Assembly: GCA_002838945.1 (NCBI GenBank)
Contig: PGXB01000036.1
Span: forward strand, 1-37,990
Source: a candidate division Zixibacteria bacterium HGW-Zixibacteria-1
Lineage (GTDB): Bacteria; Zixibacteria; MSB-5A5; GN15; PGXB01
Length of the DNA stretch: 37,990 bases
Reading direction: 5' to 3'
The notes beneath the pieces were generated by a model, which did not search any database, was not told the origin of the DNA, and saw nothing but the letters and a program-made list of their open reading frames with translations. The translations under genes were made by a program, and so were the position numbers. Positions 9,480 through 19,485 of the stretch are shown here, piece by piece. How positions within the stretch are numbered: position 1 is the first letter of the stretch; every line of letters begins with the position of its first letter.

Positions 9480-11633
9480 CTAACTCTCCGGCCATGGGTC
9501 GGGGCCGCAGATAGGCGCCGGGCCGCCACGGTACATATATTTAATCAAATAGGACACATCAAGCAGATTGATGGCCCCATCACCATTGGGATCGGCTTCC
9601 GGCATGCAAGGCGGTACTGCTCCGCCTTTGTAGACATAGCAGATGATATAAGTTACATCAAGAATCCCGACGGAGCCATTATTGTTGGCATCACCGGGCT
9701 CATCGCAGCAACCTGGTACATCACAAGCATCGCCAACGCCATCGCCATCAGTATCTGTCTGGTCAGGATTATATACATCCGGGCAGTTGTCATCCAGGCA
9801 GGTATTCAGGGCAAAACCGGGGTTCCCATAGCCGTCATTGTCGGTGTCGATGCATTCGTCGCAGAGATCGCCGATACCATCGGCGTCAAAATCCTCCTGA
9901 TCGGAGTTGGCGATTATCAAACAATTATCACAGCTATCGCCGATACCATCGCCGTCATAATCTTCCTGATCCGGGTTATAAATATCGGGGCAGTTGTCCA
10001 CAGCACAGATGCTGGCTGGAAAACCGGGATCACCGAAACCATCGCCATCGCTGTCCGTGCAGTCATCACAAACATCGCCGAAACCATCATTGTCCAAGTC
10101 GGCCTGGTCCGGGTTATAGACTGAAAAACAGTTATCCGGCGGGCATTCATTTTCGGGATGCCAGGGATCGCCGAAACCATCGGCATCAAAATCGTAGCAC
10201 AGGCCATTCAAGAATATGGCAATATTATGCGAATAATAATTGGTTACGGCCAGATCAAGGTCGCCGTCCGAATCAAAGTCGGCGGACTGCATCGCAACCG
10301 GCTCGTTTCCCGATGAAAATGTCCGCACCGACCCCAGAGTTCCATCGCCGGCATTGTTAAATAAACAGACATTATTTCTTATACGGGAGACGCATCCGAC
10401 ATCGAGGTCGGAATCGGTGTCAAAATCGCCGATAATGGCGGATTGTGCCTTTTCGCCGGCAGACTGTGCACTGAATAGTGCAAAGGTGGCATCCTGATTA
10501 TTCATGAAGACCATGACGTTTCCGGTAAGATAGTTGGAGACAGCCAGATCAAGATATCCATCGGCATTCAAATCGCCGGCCGCAATCGACTGCGGGTCCC
10601 CACCGGCGGCATAATCGACATGCCAGCCGAAATTGGCGTGACCGTCATTAATAAGAATAGATATATTGTCCGAATTCTTGTTGGCCGTCGCCAGGTCGGC
10701 ATCGCCGTCATTGTCAAAATCACCGGAACAGACCCACTCGGGGTTACCGTTGACGGCATAAGTATTATAAATCGTAAAAAGGCCGTCACCATTGTTTAAA
10801 TGAACCGTCACAACACCGCTTACGTAATCTGTATTGGCCAGGTCAAGATACCCGTCACCATTTAGATCCTCTGTTATGACAGTATATGGATTTTGACCGA
10901 CACCGTAAGAATTGGAGAATGTAAATGTGCCATTGCCGCTGTTATGATACACGTAGAGACTGTTGTCCAATGAATTAGCCACCACGAAATCGACATAGCC
11001 ATCACGATTTAGATCGGCCGCCGCGATACCGCGGGGACCAAGGGCCGTCTCATAAGAGGGACCGGCGGAAAAAGTGCCATCACCCTGATTCAACCAGACA
11101 TAGACATTCTGGTCTCCTTGCGGGGCGGCCAAAATATCAATATCGCGGTCATTATCAATATCGGCCACGGCGATTGGCCATAGATCCGGCACATTACCGT
11201 AAGTCGCATCGAGAATAAAAGAACCGACAAAACCGCCGCTGGTTCCGACAGTAAAGCTCCAATTAAAATAATTCTCCAGCGAATCCTCTGACTCTGATTT
11301 TATATCGGTAGTCAGGATCACCGTAACGACTTCGCCGGCATGGAAATCGAAGTCGGGATCAAATAAAGCCGTTTGTGTCTCCGAATTGTAGGTGATAGCT
11401 CCGAAACATAGACCGGAGGTCCTGGTATTCACCACAAAAGAACCGCCGTTGATCGAGCCGGACTTCATGGCGCAATCAAAAGTCACCGATATCATATCGC
11501 CCGGCGACACATTCAGCTCATTTTGCTCCGGCGTTAATGTCAATATGTGGGGTGTTTGCCCATAGATCGCACCCGTCAGAAATAGTATTATTACTAAAAC
11601 GGTGGTGGGAATTAGGTTGTCGCGCCTGGTCAT
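9480..11633 (-). CDS. Large secreted FG-GAP/VCBS propeller protein with TSP type-3 repeats and dockerin tail
   Basis: This 717-aa surface or secreted protein has a signal peptide (1-25) and an SbsA/Big_5-type Ig-like domain (about 28-130). Seven FG-GAP/VCBS repeats follow, whose calcium loops (such as DLNRDGYVD and DFDNDGDAD) start at residues 158, 207, 256, 305, 354, 403 and 452, exactly 49 apart, as expected for a seven-bladed propeller. Thrombospondin type-3-like calcium repeats (about 480-640; DxDxDGxGD and CPDxYNPDQ motifs) come next. A dockerin pair (about 646-704) ends the protein. It is very rich in Asp, so a calcium-stabilised rod is likely. The ATG has a strong GGAGGAGG site. A role in adhesion or surface structure is inference; no catalytic residues are apparent. 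Confidence 0.88.
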
Positions 11634-11788: not shown

Positions 11789-14700
11789 TTAATTCGGATC
11801 GCCGACCAGAATAAAGCCGGCCCAGAGAAGCGGATGGCCATGCCCCAGAGAGCTGCGGGATTGGGCCAGTTGTTCCAGTTGCGAATTGCGCAGGGCGTCA
11901 ACTTTCGATTCCCCCGCCAGCCAGCGGCCGTAAAACCCATGCATCAGTTGCGAGGTTTCCTTGTCCATTATTTTCCAGAGACTCATCAACAGGGATTTAA
12001 CGCCGGCATGGCGGAAGGCCCGCTGCAGGCCGAAAACGCCTTCGCCGTTAATGCTTTCCCCCACACCGGTTTCGCAGGCGGACAGCACGGCCAGTTGCGT
12101 TCCGGTCAGGTTCAAACCGGAAATTTCATAGGCGGTCAGAATGCCGTCTTCGTCGGTGGTCGTTTTTGCATCCTTCGCTGAAAGCAGCCGGTTTGCTCCA
12201 GCCAGAGCCAGCCCGGATCGCATCAGCGGATTGTTTTGCGCCGGGTCGTTTGAAACTGCTGACGCGTCACAAAAGAAGCCGTGTGTGGCCAGATGGAGGA
12301 TGCTTGGGGGAATGGTAATCGACTTAAGGACTTTCTCTCCGGCCTTGTTTCCGTAATAACCGCGGACTTCAAGAGCACCCTTTCTTGCTAAGAGCTCGGT
12401 AATAGAATTCATTTCGATCCGGCCATACCTGAGGGGAGGAAATGCAGTATTGAGACAATCTATTGATCGGCGGTCAATATCCCGGCTCTGAGAATAATTG
12501 ACGTTTCGAATGGTTGGTTCCCCCCTGTTATCGGGCGAACCGACCGAATCACCTGTATAGTCGAAATCAGGATCGGCAATAACCATAACATCAAACAATG
12601 AATCGGGCTTTTGCGCGAATCGCAGCAACTCACGGCCGGTCGACAGATAACAAATTCGATTTGCCTCGATCAGGTATGAGCCGTCGGGCCGCGTGAGAAT
12701 CTCGAAAGGAAGCAGATTCAGCTTGCTGTCCGGGGAAACATAGACAATTCGTTTGCCGCCCAGCCTATCGGCCATCGGGCCGATAAGAATATTGTAGAGT
12801 TTGCCGGTGATTTCCGACAGATCGCTCTCCAGCATCGCGCCTATCGGTGTAAAGACACGGCTGTCGGCCTGGTAAATTTCATTTCTGGCGGCATCGACAA
12901 GACTGTCGATTGATCGGGCATCACCGATGTCCGCAAATGCGACACCATCCGAAGAAGAGTAAACAAAGGCAAGGTAGCGTGAATTCGAGGAATCGATCGC
13001 GTCGGTTCCGAGTTTGGTGAAATCATAGGGATAGTATTTCAGGTACTCAAGCAGGATAGCGTCATGCGGAAGCGCCCGGCCGATGTCGGCAATGCTGAAT
13101 CTCCTGGCGAAAAGTTCGTCTTTGAACAGGGCGCAGCGCCGGCTCAGTTCTTCTTCGAGAGAGTCATTTTTATTGTACAGATATTGAATACTGTCACGGA
13201 ATGATTCATCCGGCGCCTTTTTGACGCTGGTCAGAACCATGTTGGAAATTATAGTGCATAATTCGTTCCGCCGGTCGAGCAGATCCAGAGTAACGGCATC
13301 CTCAGAGCAATAAGCCGCTTTTTGCTCGGCCATGACGGCATCAATAACCGAGGCTTTTCCTTTGAGTATCATTTCGGCCGCCAGTTCCTTCGATTGCCTG
13401 CTGCCGCATGACAGGGCCATCGAGAACAGGGAATTCTCGATAACCGGGTACTGATTAATCCAGCTCATTTTCTGCGACTCCGATGAATATGAGAAGGCAT
13501 AATCGGTCAGTTTCAGGGCCAGGTCCAGAAATTGCCCATAGTACGCGAGGCTTGAATCGCAATCATGCCTGGCGGCATAAGCCTGCGCCAGGCCTTTGAT
13601 GTTCAAATATACATTAGGATGAAGATAGCCGAGAATCCCCTGCAGTATATTCAGGGCGCGTCGGTAATCATCCACCGCTTCATCCAGATGTCCGAGACGG
13701 CGATCGAGATCCCCCAGATCGGTGTAAATTCTGGCGACATCCGGATGATTCGTTCCGAAAAGACTTTCCTTGATTTTCAGAGCCTCATTAAGGCACGTTT
13801 CCGCCTCGGAATATTCTTTAAGCTTATGATGAAGCCGTGCAAGAGCGCCGTAGCTGTTGGCGACGTCATTATGATTCGGGCCAAGCAGATTTTTCCTGAT
13901 CTCGAGAGCCTGAAGCATATATTCCTTGGCGACATCGTAATTCCCCATGACGGCATTGATGTTTCCAAGGTTATTCATTATAGTCGCGACCGTATTATGA
14001 TTTGTACCGTACACTTTTTCGAGAACCTGCAAGGCTTTCCTAAAAAGCGAGTCGGCGGTCGGGTAGTCGCCTCTGACAAGGTTCACTGCGGCCAGGCTGT
14101 TCAGGCTGGCGCCCATCTCCGGATGATCCTCACCGACCGTCTTTTTGAGAATTTCAATGGCCCGATTAAGGAGAGGTTCCATCTCCCCGAATCTTCCGAG
14201 CCTCCAGTAAAGAGAGGCCTTCAAATTCAGCCTGACGGCCAGATTAGGGTGAATCTCGCCGAAAAATTCTTCTTCCATGGCATAGACTTCATTGAACGTG
14301 GATTCCGCCTTAAGGTATTCTCCCCTGACAATATATAAATTGCCCAGATTGCCCAGCGTCATGGCAATATCCGGGTGGCGTGATCCATAAATTTTCTTAA
14401 AACAACCGAGGGCGCTTTCATAATCGCTTTCAGCCTGATCATAATCACCGGTAAAAAAGCGGACATTTCCCAGCGCATTGTAGCAATCCCCGATTTTGTT
14501 CGGTTCGATATCCGGGGCTTTTTCGCAGATGGCCATGGCCAGCCGCGCCAGCGTGTCGGCTCTTTCATATTCATTTTTGAAATTATAGAGGGGCACCGAT
14601 GCTTCATAACATTCGGCCGTAATCAAGTTCTCTTTGTCGATTTCCTCAAGAATATTACGGGCGCCGACCAGAACATCTTCGCACGGCTGATATCTTCCCT

Positions 14701-15064
14701 GCTCCCGATAAACATCGCCCAGTCTGACAAGAATCTCCGCCGTTTCGATTGATGCCTCGCCGAAAATCGACTTTCGAATAGAAAGGGCCGAATCGAAATA
14801 ATTCTCCGCCGCAGTAAATTGCCCTATGTCGTAAAAGTATAAACCCAGAATAGAATATAAATCCGCGATGGTGCTGTCGGGAATGCCCGGGGTCCGTTCG
14901 AACTCGCTCCGGGTCTGCTTCAGGATCGTCAGAGCGGAATCATATTGCGCCGCCTCACGCAGGCTGTCGGCATAAATTAGCCGGGCCGACTGATCGGCAT
15001 AGCTATTTATGCCCGCCCCGAGCGGATACAAAAGAAGTAAAATAAAGAGATATGTTTTTATCAT
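11789..15064 (-). CDS. Exported TPR-CHAT protein (caspase-like protease domain)
   Basis: This 1091-aa protein has a Sec signal peptide (about 1-24: basic start, [13 protein letters not shown] core, no lipobox Cys). About ten kinesin-light-chain-type TPR units of 42 residues follow (about 66-505; for example [20 protein letters not shown] then LGPNHNDVA). A helical linker leads to a CHAT domain (about 755-1091). The caspase-like pair is intact: His928 in LHLATHG and Cys997 in LSACETG. CHAT domains belong to the caspase/separase clan, and TPR arrays usually sense a partner. The gene is third in an operon with an ECF sigma and its anti-sigma (11-bp gap, no clear ribosome binding site, so coupled translation is likely). 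The export signal is unlike the cytosolic CRISPR-linked TPR-CHAT. Substrate unknown; cleavage of the anti-sigma periplasmic domain is a hypothesis. Confidence 0.9.
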
Positions 15065-15075
15065 GCGTCGGCGAT

Positions 15076-15774
15076 TTATTTTATCAGCCTGAATTTATAA
15101 ATCTGCTCGTTGCCCGACGATACATCTTCCGGATCAGACAGCTTCAATTCAAATACTCCCGTTTTAATTTTGTCCGCCGGTATCAGCAACCGCCCCATTT
15201 CATACTTGTCAAAAGCATTGAAAGATTTATCCAGCATCAGTGTCCGACCGTTTTCGTCGGTGATCTCTATTATATATTCCCGTCCCGGGACAACATCCTG
15301 ATATAGGAATGATAAGACAACATCATTGTCGTCGGGAATATTAAATTCCGCCGTGGAGGACGATCTGGTGGGCATCAGGTTTACGGCCGACACCGCTTTG
15401 ATGCCTTCATCCGGGTTTTTTTGAATTCCTTTATAAGCCGGGTAAAGCAGCAGGATAATTATAACCAGGGCGAGGGCCGGTCTGAAAACAAATGGTGTAT
15501 CGGGCCATAATCGGCTGATGAGCCCGGATAGAAGCGAACGCTTCTCAACGGTGGCTTCGCTGAGGCCGACCGCTGACGCGACTTCTTCAATAATTGATTT
15601 ATTGGAAATCAACAGATTTGATTCGGCGCAAAAACTCTGCGCCTCCGAAAAACAAGCTTTGCACTCCAGCAAATGGGCCTCAAACAGCTCGCATTCCTTT
15701 ACGGGCAGCGCCCCCAGTTCGTAGGCATGCAACAGCTTTCCGGCTTCAGGATCTATGCATCTTTCTTCAGTCAT
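15076..15774 (-). CDS. Transmembrane anti-sigma factor with zinc-finger (ZAS-like) N-terminus
   Basis: The 232-aa protein has a cytosolic N-terminus with HLLECKAC, the H-x3-C-x2-C core (His34, Cys38, Cys41) of zinc-binding anti-sigma domains, preceded by Cys6, His16 and Cys28 as possible further ligands. One membrane helix (about 98-115, FRPALALVIIILLLYPAY) is followed by a beta-rich extracytoplasmic domain of about 115 residues with no recognised family. It overlaps the sigma gene by 8 bp (ATGACTGA) and precedes the TPR-CHAT gene by 11 bp. Known ZAS proteins hold their partner sigma at the membrane until a signal releases it, often by proteolysis. Identification rests on motif, topology and position, which agree well. 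Confidence 0.85.
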   Translation of the reverse strand: MTEERCIDPEAGKLLHAYELGALPVKECELFEAHLLECKACFSEAQSFCAESNLLISNKSIIEEVASAVGLSEATVEKRSLLSGLISRLWPDTPFVFRPALALVIIILLLYPAYKGIQKNPDEGIKAVSAVNLMPTRSSSTAEFNIPDDNDVVLSFLYQDVVPGREYIIEITDENGRTLMLDKSFNAFDKYEMGRLLIPADKIKTGVFELKLSDPEDVSSGNEQIYKFRLIK

Positions 15775-16306
15775 TGGATGACTCCTTGCCCAAACATTCC
15801 TTCAAGATCCGGCGGCCTCGATTTAATATCACATAAAGATTATTCGGCTTTATATCGAGCCGTCGGCAGATGTCGTCGGTGGTGAAGCCCTGATGGACCA
15901 GATTCAATGCCCTTGCATACCGGGGAAAAGCCGCAATCAGCTTCCTTAAGCAATCGGTTATTTCACTGACCGAACTTGAATCATTCGGCGCATGAACCCG
16001 ATCGATCAGGACGCCGGCATCTATACTTCCGGCAACCTTATTGTCCCGCACGCACTTGCCCTGCAAATAATTTCCGATCTTGTTTCTCAGAACCTTCAGG
16101 GCCCAGGCATTGAAGTGTCCGTGGAAATCTGCGGTCCTGTACTTTTCAAGGACTGTCAGACATGCCTCCTGGGCGATATCCTCGGCATCTTCCTTCTTCA
16201 ATAACCTTTTTTTGGCGAGATATTCAAATCTTACGCGAAGATATTGAAATAGCTGTTTTTCGGCCTCCGCGTCGCCTTTTCGTGCCTTAATGACAAGATT
16301 ATTCAA
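15767..16306 (-). CDS. ECF-type RNA polymerase sigma factor
   Basis: This 179-aa protein begins MNNLVIKARKGDAEAEKQLF, a typical ECF start. Sigma region 2 spans about 5-85 (with DAEDIAQEACLTVLEKY and FNAWALKVLRNKIGNYLQGK), and region 4 spans about 115-172 (LIAAFPRYARALNLVHQGFT, then ICRRLDIKPNNLYVILNRGR). The frame is open up to TTG 16366, but that codon lies in a good promoter (16338-16366). TTG 16306, preceded by AAGGGA, is therefore chosen; GTG 16324 is a third option. It is the first gene of the sigma / anti-sigma / TPR-CHAT operon. The helix-turn-helix of region 4 is intact. Its target promoters are unknown; the nearby secreted-protein genes are candidates only by proximity. Confidence 0.9.
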   Translation of the reverse strand: MNNLVIKARKGDAEAEKQLFQYLRVRFEYLAKKRLLKKEDAEDIAQEACLTVLEKYRTADFHGHFNAWALKVLRNKIGNYLQGKCVRDNKVAGSIDAGVLIDRVHAPNDSSSVSEITDCLRKLIAAFPRYARALNLVHQGFTTDDICRRLDIKPNNLYVILNRGRRILKECLGKESSND

Positions 16307-16337
16307 GATGTCCCTTACCCTCACTTCGAGATAACTT

Positions 16338-16366
16338 AATATAGCACTTAATAATATGGATGACAA
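16338..16366 (-). promoter_or_regulatory. Sigma-70-type promoter of the sigma/anti-sigma/CHAT operon
   Basis: On the minus strand TTGTCA (16366-16361) is separated by 17 bp from TATATT (16343-16338); each box matches the consensus at five of six positions. The implied RNA start is near 16331, giving a leader of about 25 nt before TTG 16306. It suggests housekeeping expression of the operon; autoregulation by the ECF factor is not evident. Confidence 0.6.
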
Positions 16367-16450: not shown

Positions 16451-19351
16451 TCAAGGGCAGACTGGTTCGGGGCCTCCCCTGTACAAATAGCCGATCAAAT
16501 ATGTCACATCAAGCAGATTAATGGCTCCACTATGATCGGCATCGCCCGAGGCAGGCGGAATCGGCTCCGCGCCACCCTTGTACAAATAGCTGATCAAATA
16601 TGTCACATCCAGCAGATTAATCGCTCCGCTGTGGTCGGCGTCGCCGCAGATGTATGGAAGATTCACTTTGAGCGTGAAGGGCTTCTCCACTGTGGCGCCG
16701 GCGGCATCAGTGACGACAGCCGTAAAATCAACCGTCATGGTATCCGGTGATTGACCCGATAGCAGCCCTGCTTGAGATAGAGTAAAGCCGGAGCCTGATA
16801 AATCATTGTCCCTGTCTGTCCACATCTTTGGTGCGGTCCCCCCTGACGCCAGCAACTGAAACGAATAGGCTGCATTTACGGAAGCACTCGGAATTGGCAG
16901 GGTTGTTATATTCGGATAACTGTTTATCGTGAAACCATATGGACGCTCCGCCGTCTGCCCGACCTCATCACTGACCAGAGCCGTAAACGCAATGGCACCT
17001 TCTATCGAAAGTGTTCCCGCAAGCAGACCATCGGAAGTCAAAGTTAGACCCGTCCCCGCCAGATCGGCGTTTTTATCGATCCAGGTAAATGCGCCATAAC
17101 CTCCGGATGCCTCAAGTGCCAATGAGAAAGGCATTCCCACCGTCCAGTCGGAAATCGCTCCAGTGGCAATTTGAAGCGGCAGCCCGCAATTGTAAGAAAA
17201 CACTCTGACGGCATCCAGGCCCGCCTCGATTACCGAATTGGCCGCCAGATCGGAGGCGTTGAATCGCAGCCGAACCGTCGGTGATGGCCCAATAAAATCA
17301 CTTACCCAGAAACGGTGGATGAACCAACCCCCTGAAGCTTCCACGACCGGCCCGACATATTCGACATCGATCCAGGAGGCGCCGTTGTCGCTGGATATTT
17401 TGACTATAAAAATATCCGCATTGGGAGCCCCGCCTTCGTCATTGGAATACCAGCGGGCATATTCCACGACAGCATCGCCCGTGGACAAATCGAAAGTCGG
17501 TGAGGTCAGAATTGTGGTGCCATTGTCAACATCGGAATAAAGCGGATTATCGGTAACATAGCAGTAACCTGACTGATCATAATCTTTTGAAGGGCCGCCT
17601 TCCAGCGTAAAATAAGGCTGGCGGCGAATCCACCGCCCGACGGTCGCTTCGCCCGACACCGTCCACCCTTTAACAGTTTCGAAGTTATCTTCGAAGACAG
17701 TCGTCATTTCGGCGGCAAAAGCGGCCAGGTTCGGCCGGGATGGATCGGTATCATAAAAGATACCGCTGAGTTCCTCTTCGGCACTGGCATAATATGCTAT
17801 GCGCGTATAACATGGTAAACCCGGTATTGACGCTTCGAAAATTCCCCCGCCCATATCTGTCATAGAAATCGTTTCATATGGCCCACCATCGGCAGAGTAA
17901 TGCAGCACGACTGTTCCCGGAACAAGAACGCCTCCGCCATACCCTTCGACCTGCATTTGAATTGCGGCCTCATTATTAGGGAAAAATATTTCCGGGGCGC
18001 CCGCTGGAAAACTCAGGATTAATTGCGGTGGCGGAGCATTGGCCGCGGCGGCGGCCAGAACTGTTGCAAAAGTCGCTTTAACCATTCGGGTCATGTAATC
18101 GAAATTGCAATAGGTCGTACTGTCATGACTTGAATGATAAACCGTGGAAAAAATATATTCATGGGCATAGGCGATATTATATCCGTATTGCTGGAACGGA
18201 TAATGATCCGAGCCGCCGCCCCCTCCGGCCAGGTGCCCGGTGATGTTGATTCCCTGCAGTGAATCGGCCAGATCAATCCACAACTGAGCGAAATATGTAT
18301 CATTACCATAGGAGGAATAACCATCGGCATCGTTCTGGTAATGCGCGATCATATCCATATTCATCATAAAAAGAATATTGTCGCCATTGGCATATGCGGA
18401 ACCGGCATAGTGGTAGGAACCGTACAATCCCCATTCCTCCGCATCGAAAAGTACAAAAACATAGGTCATCTCGGTCTCTATGTCCTTTATGGCACGAGCG
18501 ATTTCCATCACCGCCGCCGTGCCGCTGCCGTTGTCGTCGGCCCCGGGTGAAACCGAGCCGGCATCATAATGCGCGCCGACAATGATCTGAACATCCGGGA
18601 AACTTGTGCCCGGTTTTACGGCGACGACATTATAGCAGTCAGCATAGGATCCACTGAGATTCTCGACAAAGTGATCGAGATAGACCGAGTCGTATCCAAA
18701 CTCGGTAAATTTGCCCGCAATCCAGTCCCTGGCGGCATAAATAGAGTCGGTTCCGGCTACTCGCCTGTAAAAAGCCTGGAGTCGTTCCACATATGATTGC
18801 AATGAATCATACTCAATAAGATTTATCAGTGAATCAAGATTATAGTCTATTTTAGCGGAAAAGATGCTTTTGTCCACCGGGGTCTTATAAATAATCGGCA
18901 GGCTTTGCGGCGGAAGCGGCGCCAGCCCCGCGATTTCGCCTGACTCCGACAAATCTCCGGCATGAGCCTGGTACACCCTGAGATTGCCTTCGACATAAAT
19001 AAGCGGATACCGTCCGACATTCGAACTGTCATGGCGGATATCGATGGCCAATTCGCTGCGACTGACATTGGCCGCAATTAACTCAAATCTCAGCGAGTTT
19101 TCCTCGAATATTCTTTCATACTCGCTCAAAGCGAGAACGAGATATCCGTCCTGTATTTTCAGAACGGCATCAACTCCCAATGCCGAAAGTGCCCGGGCGT
19201 CACCGGCATTTTGTACGATAATTTTATACAGGTTGCCGGTCTCATCCTGCGATGCCGGCGCTAAAGTCACGGCGCCCAACAGACTGCCGGCCAGCAGGAT
19301 AAATGGCAGCGCATATAAAATTACCCGAATATGTTTTTTGCATGATTCCAT
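16451..19351 (-). CDS. Secreted M28-family zinc peptidase with Ig-like domains and dockerin tail
   Basis: This 966-aa protein has a signal peptide (about 1-30), an N-terminal pro-region (about 40-180) and an M28 peptidase domain (about 185-440). Zinc and catalytic residues are all present: VGAHYD (His261), GADDNGSG (Asp272), DAEEWGLYGS (Glu305/306), NMD (Asp333) and YHSSHD (His406). An MAM or immune-inhibitor-A-like jelly-roll domain (about 550-720) and two He_PIG-type Ig-like domains (about 725-890) follow. The C-terminus is two nearly identical dockerin repeats ([18 protein letters not shown]). M28 enzymes are amino- or carboxypeptidases. ATG 19351 is chosen because AAGGAG lies 8 bases upstream; it abuts the in-frame GTG at 19360. 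It is probably a single-gene unit with its own terminator. Confidence 0.92.
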   Translation of the reverse strand: MESCKKHIRVILYALPFILLAGSLLGAVTLAPASQDETGNLYKIIVQNAGDARALSALGVDAVLKIQDGYLVLALSEYERIFEENSLRFELIAANVSRSELAIDIRHDSSNVGRYPLIYVEGNLRVYQAHAGDLSESGEIAGLAPLPPQSLPIIYKTPVDKSIFSAKIDYNLDSLINLIEYDSLQSYVERLQAFYRRVAGTDSIYAARDWIAGKFTEFGYDSVYLDHFVENLSGSYADCYNVVAVKPGTSFPDVQIIVGAHYDAGSVSPGADDNGSGTAAVMEIARAIKDIETEMTYVFVLFDAEEWGLYGSYHYAGSAYANGDNILFMMNMDMIAHYQNDADGYSSYGNDTYFAQLWIDLADSLQGINITGHLAGGGGGSDHYPFQQYGYNIAYAHEYIFSTVYHSSHDSTTYCNFDYMTRMVKATFATVLAAAAANAPPPQLILSFPAGAPEIFFPNNEAAIQMQVEGYGGGVLVPGTVVLHYSADGGPYETISMTDMGGGIFEASIPGLPCYTRIAYYASAEEELSGIFYDTDPSRPNLAAFAAEMTTVFEDNFETVKGWTVSGEATVGRWIRRQPYFTLEGGPSKDYDQSGYCYVTDNPLYSDVDNGTTILTSPTFDLSTGDAVVEYARWYSNDEGGAPNADIFIVKISSDNGASWIDVEYVGPVVEASGGWFIHRFWVSDFIGPSPTVRLRFNASDLAANSVIEAGLDAVRVFSYNCGLPLQIATGAISDWTVGMPFSLALEASGGYGAFTWIDKNADLAGTGLTLTSDGLLAGTLSIEGAIAFTALVSDEVGQTAERPYGFTINSYPNITTLPIPSASVNAAYSFQLLASGGTAPKMWTDRDNDLSGSGFTLSQAGLLSGQSPDTMTVDFTAVVTDAAGATVEKPFTLKVNLPYICGDADHSGAINLLDVTYLISYLYKGGAEPIPPASGDADHSGAINLLDVTYLIGYLYRGGPEPVCP
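16472..16645. repeat. Tandem 99-bp duplication encoding the dockerin pair
   Basis: Bases 16472-16546 and 16571-16645 are about 88% identical by direct comparison (about 9 differences in 75), at a 99-bp (33-codon) period. Most differences are at third codon positions. This is a within-gene duplication of a dockerin repeat, not a CRISPR. Confidence 0.85.
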
Positions 19352-19485
19352 TATAGCCACTCCTTAGACACGCCCTCGAGGAAGGTCGCGGTAAGAATTA
19401 ATAACAAGTTTTATATACATAAATATAACAAGATCGGTTTTTTATGCAAGTATAAACGGCAGAAGCATGACGCCCCAAAGAAAAT

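Follow-up and report, generated by a model that had tools for sequence, protein, structure and literature searches.

A conserved module of an ECF sigma factor, a membrane anti-sigma factor and an exported TPR-CHAT putative protease in Zixibacteria

The regulated proteolysis of membrane anti-sigma factors, as described for DegS and RseP, comprises an outer site-1 cut and a site-2 cut made by RseP (PMC8103513). In the craspase of type III-E clustered regularly interspaced short palindromic repeats (CRISPR) systems, Csx29 cuts the sigma inhibitor Csx30 at residues 427-429, a cleavage that depends on loop size and for which no single essential residue was found (PMC10028731), whilst the protease CalpL cuts the anti-sigma factor CalpT and thereby releases an extracytoplasmic function (ECF) sigma factor (PMC11417357). 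The ECF54 group has CHAT and subtilase neighbours and has been described as being without an anti-sigma factor (PMC8999054), and DdvA (PDB 8rot, 8rw5) is a transmembrane anti-sigma factor by the titles of its PDB entries and a CHAT-domain protein by its chain sequence. Here we describe three minus-strand genes, at positions 11789-16366 of a 37,990-nucleotide stretch of DNA (hereafter the window; contig PGXB01000036.1) within one contig of the 3.8-Mb genome of the candidate division Zixibacteria bacterium HGW-Zixibacteria-1 (G000), which encode an ECF sigma factor, a membrane anti-sigma factor and an exported tetratricopeptide repeat (TPR)-CHAT protein. Sigma factor, anti-sigma factor and exported TPR-CHAT protein form a conserved module in Zixibacteria. 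A functional pairing of the exported TPR-CHAT protein with the membrane anti-sigma factor is strongly supported: the genes are repeatedly linked, in any of three gene orders, and co-occur across the phylum, the catalytic residues are conserved, the compartments of the two proteins match, and the DdvA PDB entry combines an anti-sigma title with a CHAT-domain chain.

Homologues were retrieved by searching the genome contigs with a profile, a single-sequence search returning nothing, and gene contexts were inspected for approximately 90 CHAT open reading frames (ORFs) of the phylum, on incomplete contigs of metagenome-assembled genomes; ORF starts were assigned automatically, with inspection by eye limited to those of consequence, and signal peptides were judged by hydrophobicity. 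The three-gene set on which a preliminary description of this DNA had focused proved to be recurrent, in dozens of genomes: where the 5' end of an exported TPR-CHAT gene was intact, a sigma factor gene and a transmembrane anti-sigma factor gene were adjacent in 48 of 68 cases by script and 49 of 68 by eye, whereas approximately 5% of random genes would be expected to have a sigma factor gene within the distance used, as estimated from the 28 ECF-type matches in G000. The sigma neighbours of the 68 exported CHAT genes were arranged in the order of the window (30), convergently (16) or with the CHAT gene first (4); another 18 had no sigma neighbour, among them five additional copies within a linked cluster and a few genes truncated at the end of a contig. 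Conversely, approximately 40 of the 49 full-length anti-sigma factors of the phylum adjoin a CHAT gene, two operons truncated at the end of a contig being counted among them, and approximately eight do not. Across 132 genomes, a long-class CHAT gene was present in 31 of the 33 genomes with a full-length anti-sigma factor, compared with 24 of the 99 without one (odds ratio 48, p 5e-13, species relatedness inflating such p-values), and in 40 of 42 genomes when long anti-sigma factors were also counted. When partners were permuted within genomes, the correlation (r) observed between CHAT proteins and anti-sigma factors was reached in 12 of 1000 permutations, a result in favour of their pairing.

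Linkage was not universal, even within single genomes. G000 itself encodes seven CHAT genes, of which three are long and exported, namely the window copy, one on contig C1 that is convergent with a sigma/anti-sigma pair, and one on contig C16 that stands alone; the other four lack a signal peptide and lie behind a sigma factor gene and a gene for a small protein. The unlinked C16 copy (L008) is accompanied in the same genome by an unlinked sigma/anti-sigma pair on contig C23 (L203). Two other genomes, G088 and G089, have a single exported CHAT gene and a single sigma/anti-sigma pair at different loci, so that co-occurrence does not reflect co-transcription only, and the unlinked pairs of all three genomes hint at pairing in trans. 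At other loci, two (L073, G026) and three (L075, G027) exported TPR-CHAT genes were found in tandem after a single sigma/anti-sigma pair, and in G058 a CHAT gene (L218:6722-9699) was broken into several frames beside an intact pair.

The TPR-CHAT protein (1091 aa; 11789..15064) had a strong match to the CHAT domain (PF12770; 2.5e-63, 214.7 bits against a curated cut-off of 24) and eight to TPR_12. Its N-terminus reads as a Sec-type signal peptide (residues 1-23; 14996..15064), hydrophobic N-termini being shared by the exported homologues, and is followed by a TPR superhelix of the kinesin-light-chain/Rap type (residues 21-524; 13493..15004), a first caspase-like subdomain, CHAT1 (residues 669-832; 12569..13060), which by analogy with Csx29 may be a pseudo-caspase, and a second and putatively catalytic subdomain, CHAT2 (residues 881-1091; 11792..12424). 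The signal peptide given in the preliminary description was likewise read from the sequence, in which the intact pair of His928 (12281..12283) and Cys997 (12074..12076) was verified. The dyad was invariant in 51 proteins from several phyla, and no homologue classed as exported was found to lack it or the signal peptide (70 of 70 copies with both residues); the exported TPR-CHAT protein is considered a putative protease. An AlphaFold2 model of high confidence (predicted local distance difference test, pLDDT, 88.9; predicted template modelling score, pTM, 0.86) comprises the predicted superhelix, a helical linker and the two caspase-like subdomains. Among the top Foldseek matches of this model were human separase, the PDB entries titled DdvA, and Csx29; with VIA-align, Csx29 gave Z scores of 23-26 over 520-615 residues and TPR-only proteins scored higher, the scores of the model being due in part to shared TPRs.

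A further residue, Asp1034 (11963..11965), was retained in all 70 exported copies, in 24 of 24 other Zixibacteria proteins and in 78 of 80 from other phyla, and may, as in separase, line an S1 pocket that accepts a basic P1 side chain. It sits 37 residues past Cys997 in an LWkvpD motif; in separase, Asp2151 lies 41 residues past the catalytic Cys. Asp2151, which is invariant and belongs to the catalytic pocket of Chaetomium thermophilum separase, binds the P1 arginine (C. thermophilum numbering; PMC10317155). Both spacing and motif suggest that Asp1034 is equivalent to Asp2151.

The anti-sigma factor (232 aa; 15076..15774) matched zf-HC2 (4.5e-6) and consists of a cytoplasmic zinc-binding anti-sigma domain (ASD; residues 1-68, with ligands H34, C38 and C41; 15571..15774), a transmembrane helix (residues 95-119; 15418..15492) and a predicted extracytoplasmic immunoglobulin (Ig)-like beta-sandwich (residues 128-231; 15082..15393). 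The ASD resembles that of RslA (3hug, 2.4e-7) and more weakly that of RsiW, similarities from which the protein would be expected to bind and inhibit its sigma factor. The AlphaFold2 model, which was built from six sequences and is weaker than that of the CHAT protein (pLDDT 69.6), places the ASD helices, the membrane helix and a floppy linker before the beta-sandwich, for which only generic Ig-like or beta-sandwich matches were found in the PDB. Besides the three zinc ligands, the only invariant column was Arg137 (15364..15366), predicted to lie in the loop that joins the first strand to the second, 14-30 residues past the membrane segment. A site-1 cut after Arg would fit such a location, and we regard this residue only as a lead, a candidate for either cleavage or docking. 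The same unit of ASD and transmembrane helix was also found in fusions, in which it is followed by an outer region of approximately 650 aa with FlgO-like and TPR parts (L215:6043-8367, L216:6318-8594, L219:1055-3391); these fusions adjoin an ECF sigma factor gene without a CHAT gene, and exist in many copies across the phylum.

The sigma factor of the window matched TIGR02937 (2.3e-17) and Sigma70_r2 (1.2e-9), has regions 2 and 4 only, adjoins an anti-sigma factor with the HxxxCxxC motif and one transmembrane helix, and is placed by NCBIfam in the general sigma-70/ECF category only. Upstream of the operon is a sigma-70-like promoter (TTGTCA-17 nt-TATATT with a TG extension; 16338..16366), in keeping with the promoter recognised previously. 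The listed ORF of 199 aa begins at TTG16366, which is the first base of the -35 box, whilst TTG16306 has a purine-rich ribosome site (AGGG/AAGG) ahead of it and opens a protein (xNNLVIKARKGD...) that is colinear with its homologues and shares their start; on these three grounds, the gene start was moved to TTG16306, the probable start of a 179-aa protein (15767..16306). The sigma and anti-sigma genes overlap by 8 nt and the CHAT gene follows after a gap of 11 nt, as expected of genes earlier said to overlap or nearly touch. Sigma-70-like promoters precede 15 of 43 homologous sigma genes (2.2 expected from simple block shuffles) and 5 of 14 separately transcribed CHAT genes (0.8 expected, likewise), which speaks for a sensor that is always present rather than for an output that is induced. 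No ECF promoter motif common to sigma operons and convergent CHAT genes was found clearly beyond shuffles. The operon is flanked by genes for an exported dockerin-bearing FG-GAP repeat protein (window 9480-11633) and an exported dockerin-bearing M28 peptidase (window 16451-19360). No cas protein was seen among the assigned module proteins and the neighbours examined, cas families not having been searched through the window or genome, and a defence assignment of the window CHAT protein was rejected, PADLOC yielding only a generic TPR match.

Sigma-linked CHAT proteins without a signal peptide also exist, and their anti-sigma-like partners are soluble: exported CHAT proteins pair with a transmembrane anti-sigma factor, and 18 cytoplasmic ones with a soluble partner of approximately 196 aa. 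The apparent exceptions to this match look like artefacts, in that the nearest sigma factor belongs to another unit in two (L065, L088) and the start is misplaced in the third (L121). The soluble partners have in common the motif fDS..PLPEGVRPA..d.RRL.Y as well as an apparently beta-rich C-terminal region; the one tested had no Pfam match, and with hhalign the cytoplasmic partner matched the anti-sigma profile only weakly and over the beta-domain (probability 19.8), hence homology to the anti-sigma factors is not claimed. These cytoplasmic modules (L010, L011, L012 and L103-L117) consist of an ECF sigma factor, the PLPEGVRPA protein and a cytoplasmic TPR-CHAT protein, and the one tested from G000 also has an exported subtilase with a dockerin. 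The PLPEGVRPA protein is possibly an overlooked anti-sigma factor of ECF54-like sigma factors.

Exported TPR-CHAT homologues were identified beyond the phylum, in cyanobacteria, Acidobacteriota, Desulfobacterota, Magnetococcales, myxobacteria and others, where contexts were taken from a limited sample of 80 loci. On these loci the sigma link is largely a feature of Zixibacteria; a Desulfobacteraceae locus (L128) has a convergent sigma/anti-sigma arrangement beside its CHAT gene. Fusions of anti-sigma factor and CHAT like that of DdvA were absent from the CHAT ORFs examined, as well as from the eight regions searched in myxobacteria, which came from two genomes, of Sorangium and Polyangiaceae.

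The best reading of these data, to which we would give an even chance, is that the CHAT protein is the outer-side site-1 protease of the anti-sigma factor in an envelope signalling module, for which we infer physical contact, cleavage, a cleavage site and a signal. The zinc anti-sigma factor would hold the ECF sigma factor at the inner membrane, with its Ig-like domain outside the cytoplasmic membrane, and the TPR-CHAT protein would be secreted to the same side, where its superhelix may bind some ligand and gate the caspase/separase-like active site of CHAT2. The active protein would then cut the anti-sigma factor in or near the juxtamembrane loop bearing Arg137, after which an RseP homologue could cut the membrane helix and free the sigma factor. 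G000 encodes such a homologue (G000:C29:20558-21601; 286 bits summed) and had no match to PrsW, and the presence of BamA makes an outer membrane likely. A further-reaching version, offered tentatively and with the weight of probability against it, is that this secreted, TPR-gated, separase-like cysteine protease is a dedicated anti-sigma site-1 protease cutting after Arg137, and that a single ancient sigma/anti-sigma/TPR-CHAT theme also has an intracellular variant in the RNA-guided craspase and a fused one in DdvA. It would, to our knowledge, be the first clan CD enzyme in the role of an anti-sigma site-1 protease. Several observations weigh against the cleavage reading. The exported TPR-CHAT proteins of other phyla are mostly encoded without a sigma factor gene beside them (80 loci), and so the CHAT protein is not inherently tied to anti-sigma factors. 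The cytoplasmic CHAT proteins form one clade (support 0.99), such that the compartment match represents one or two events on the tree and is a consistency rather than a statistic. Co-diversification of CHAT proteins and sigma factors within genomes was not significant (101 of 1000 permutations). Arg137 is also invariant in anti-sigma factors without a CHAT neighbour, including those of G023 and G079, in neither of which genomes was a long-class CHAT found; it was consequently dropped as proof of a CHAT-specific mark, and may be structural.

The CHAT protein might instead act, in the manner of RseB, as a sensor or co-inhibitor that binds the outer domain of the anti-sigma factor without cutting it, a counterpart in trans of a DdvA-type receptor, with release effected by another protease or a conformational change. 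We consider this rather unlikely: the FlgO-like/TPR fusions of Zixibacteria carry the ASD-membrane unit in cis without CHAT, indicating that sensing by TPRs need not involve a protease, and DdvA, though titled an anti-sigma factor, carries a CHAT domain, yet a binding role would not require that the His, the Cys and the S1 Asp all be fully conserved, and the LATHG and LAACEGG segments of PDB 8rot align with the His and Cys motifs. That the CHAT protein is an output of the system, an exported executioner protease controlled by the adjacent sigma factor rather than its regulator, would accord with the established tendency of ECF sigma factors to control adjacent genes, and with the exported TPR-CHAT proteins that lack sigma partners in many phyla and so must have a sigma-independent job. 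This explanation is nonetheless decidedly improbable, as it leaves the compartment matching unexplained, and as convergent CHAT genes and sigma operons have no detectable ECF-type motif in common and are both preceded by sigma-70-like promoters. Three neighbouring genes without functional relation, for which nothing speaks beyond the orphan copies, are already disfavoured by the three recurring gene orders and phylum-wide co-occurrence, and we regard this as exceedingly improbable. Of the envelope pathway envisaged in the preliminary description, in which the CHAT protein would cut or shield the anti-sigma factor, the pairing itself has gained strong support, whilst the cutting or shielding is still what we infer, with indirect support on the side of cutting.

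Should the site-1 protease reading hold, a caspase/separase-like protease outside the cytoplasm would be a dedicated trigger of transcription and a new protease class in envelope stress signalling, with Asp1034 and Arg137 as a residue pair. Some of the many exported TPR-CHAT proteins would gain a concrete function, and craspase would stand alongside a wider range of sigma/anti-sigma/TPR-CHAT modules that have no CRISPR link.

Of the known systems compared, DdvA gave the CHAT profiles their best sequence match in the PDB (E 1.7e-6 and 1.4e-8) and was also among the top matches with Foldseek; in DdvA one chain has both names, whereas in the window the anti-sigma factor and TPR-CHAT protein are separate genes and the outer domain of the former is a predicted Ig-like sandwich. 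The comparison with type III-E CRISPR drawn in the preliminary description survives as an analogy of fold and logic, craspase likewise combining a TPR-CHAT protease of CHAT1/CHAT2 architecture, a sigma inhibitor and an ECF sigma factor (CASP-sigma), and fails as regards pocket and compartment: the S1 position held by Asp1034 in the exported family is not an Asp in Csx29, which is intracellular and RNA-activated in complex with Cas7-11, whereas the window CHAT protein has a signal peptide. The ECF54 context of CHAT, subtilase and carboxypeptidase, described as that of a proteolysis-controlled sigma factor, resembles the cytoplasmic TPR-CHAT modules of G000; the window module differs in its membrane zinc anti-sigma factor and exported CHAT protein. 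CalpL of the CalpL/CalpT/CalpS system is of the Lon type, is activated by cyclic oligoadenylate made during viral attack and is not exported. Both RseA, with DegS and RseP, and RsiW are like the present system in having a membrane anti-sigma factor, and an RseP homologue is encoded here, but here the part of DegS, or of another such inner-membrane protease, in the site-1 cut would fall to a cysteine protease of clan CD that is secreted. Separase shares the TPR-like and protease domains and the His, Cys and S1 Asp residues, and is eukaryotic and cohesin-cleaving. No description of a split, exported form of sigma factor, anti-sigma factor and CHAT protein was found in literature that largely excluded subscription journals. 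Relatives of the module are known in DdvA, the ECF54 context and Csx29/Csx30.

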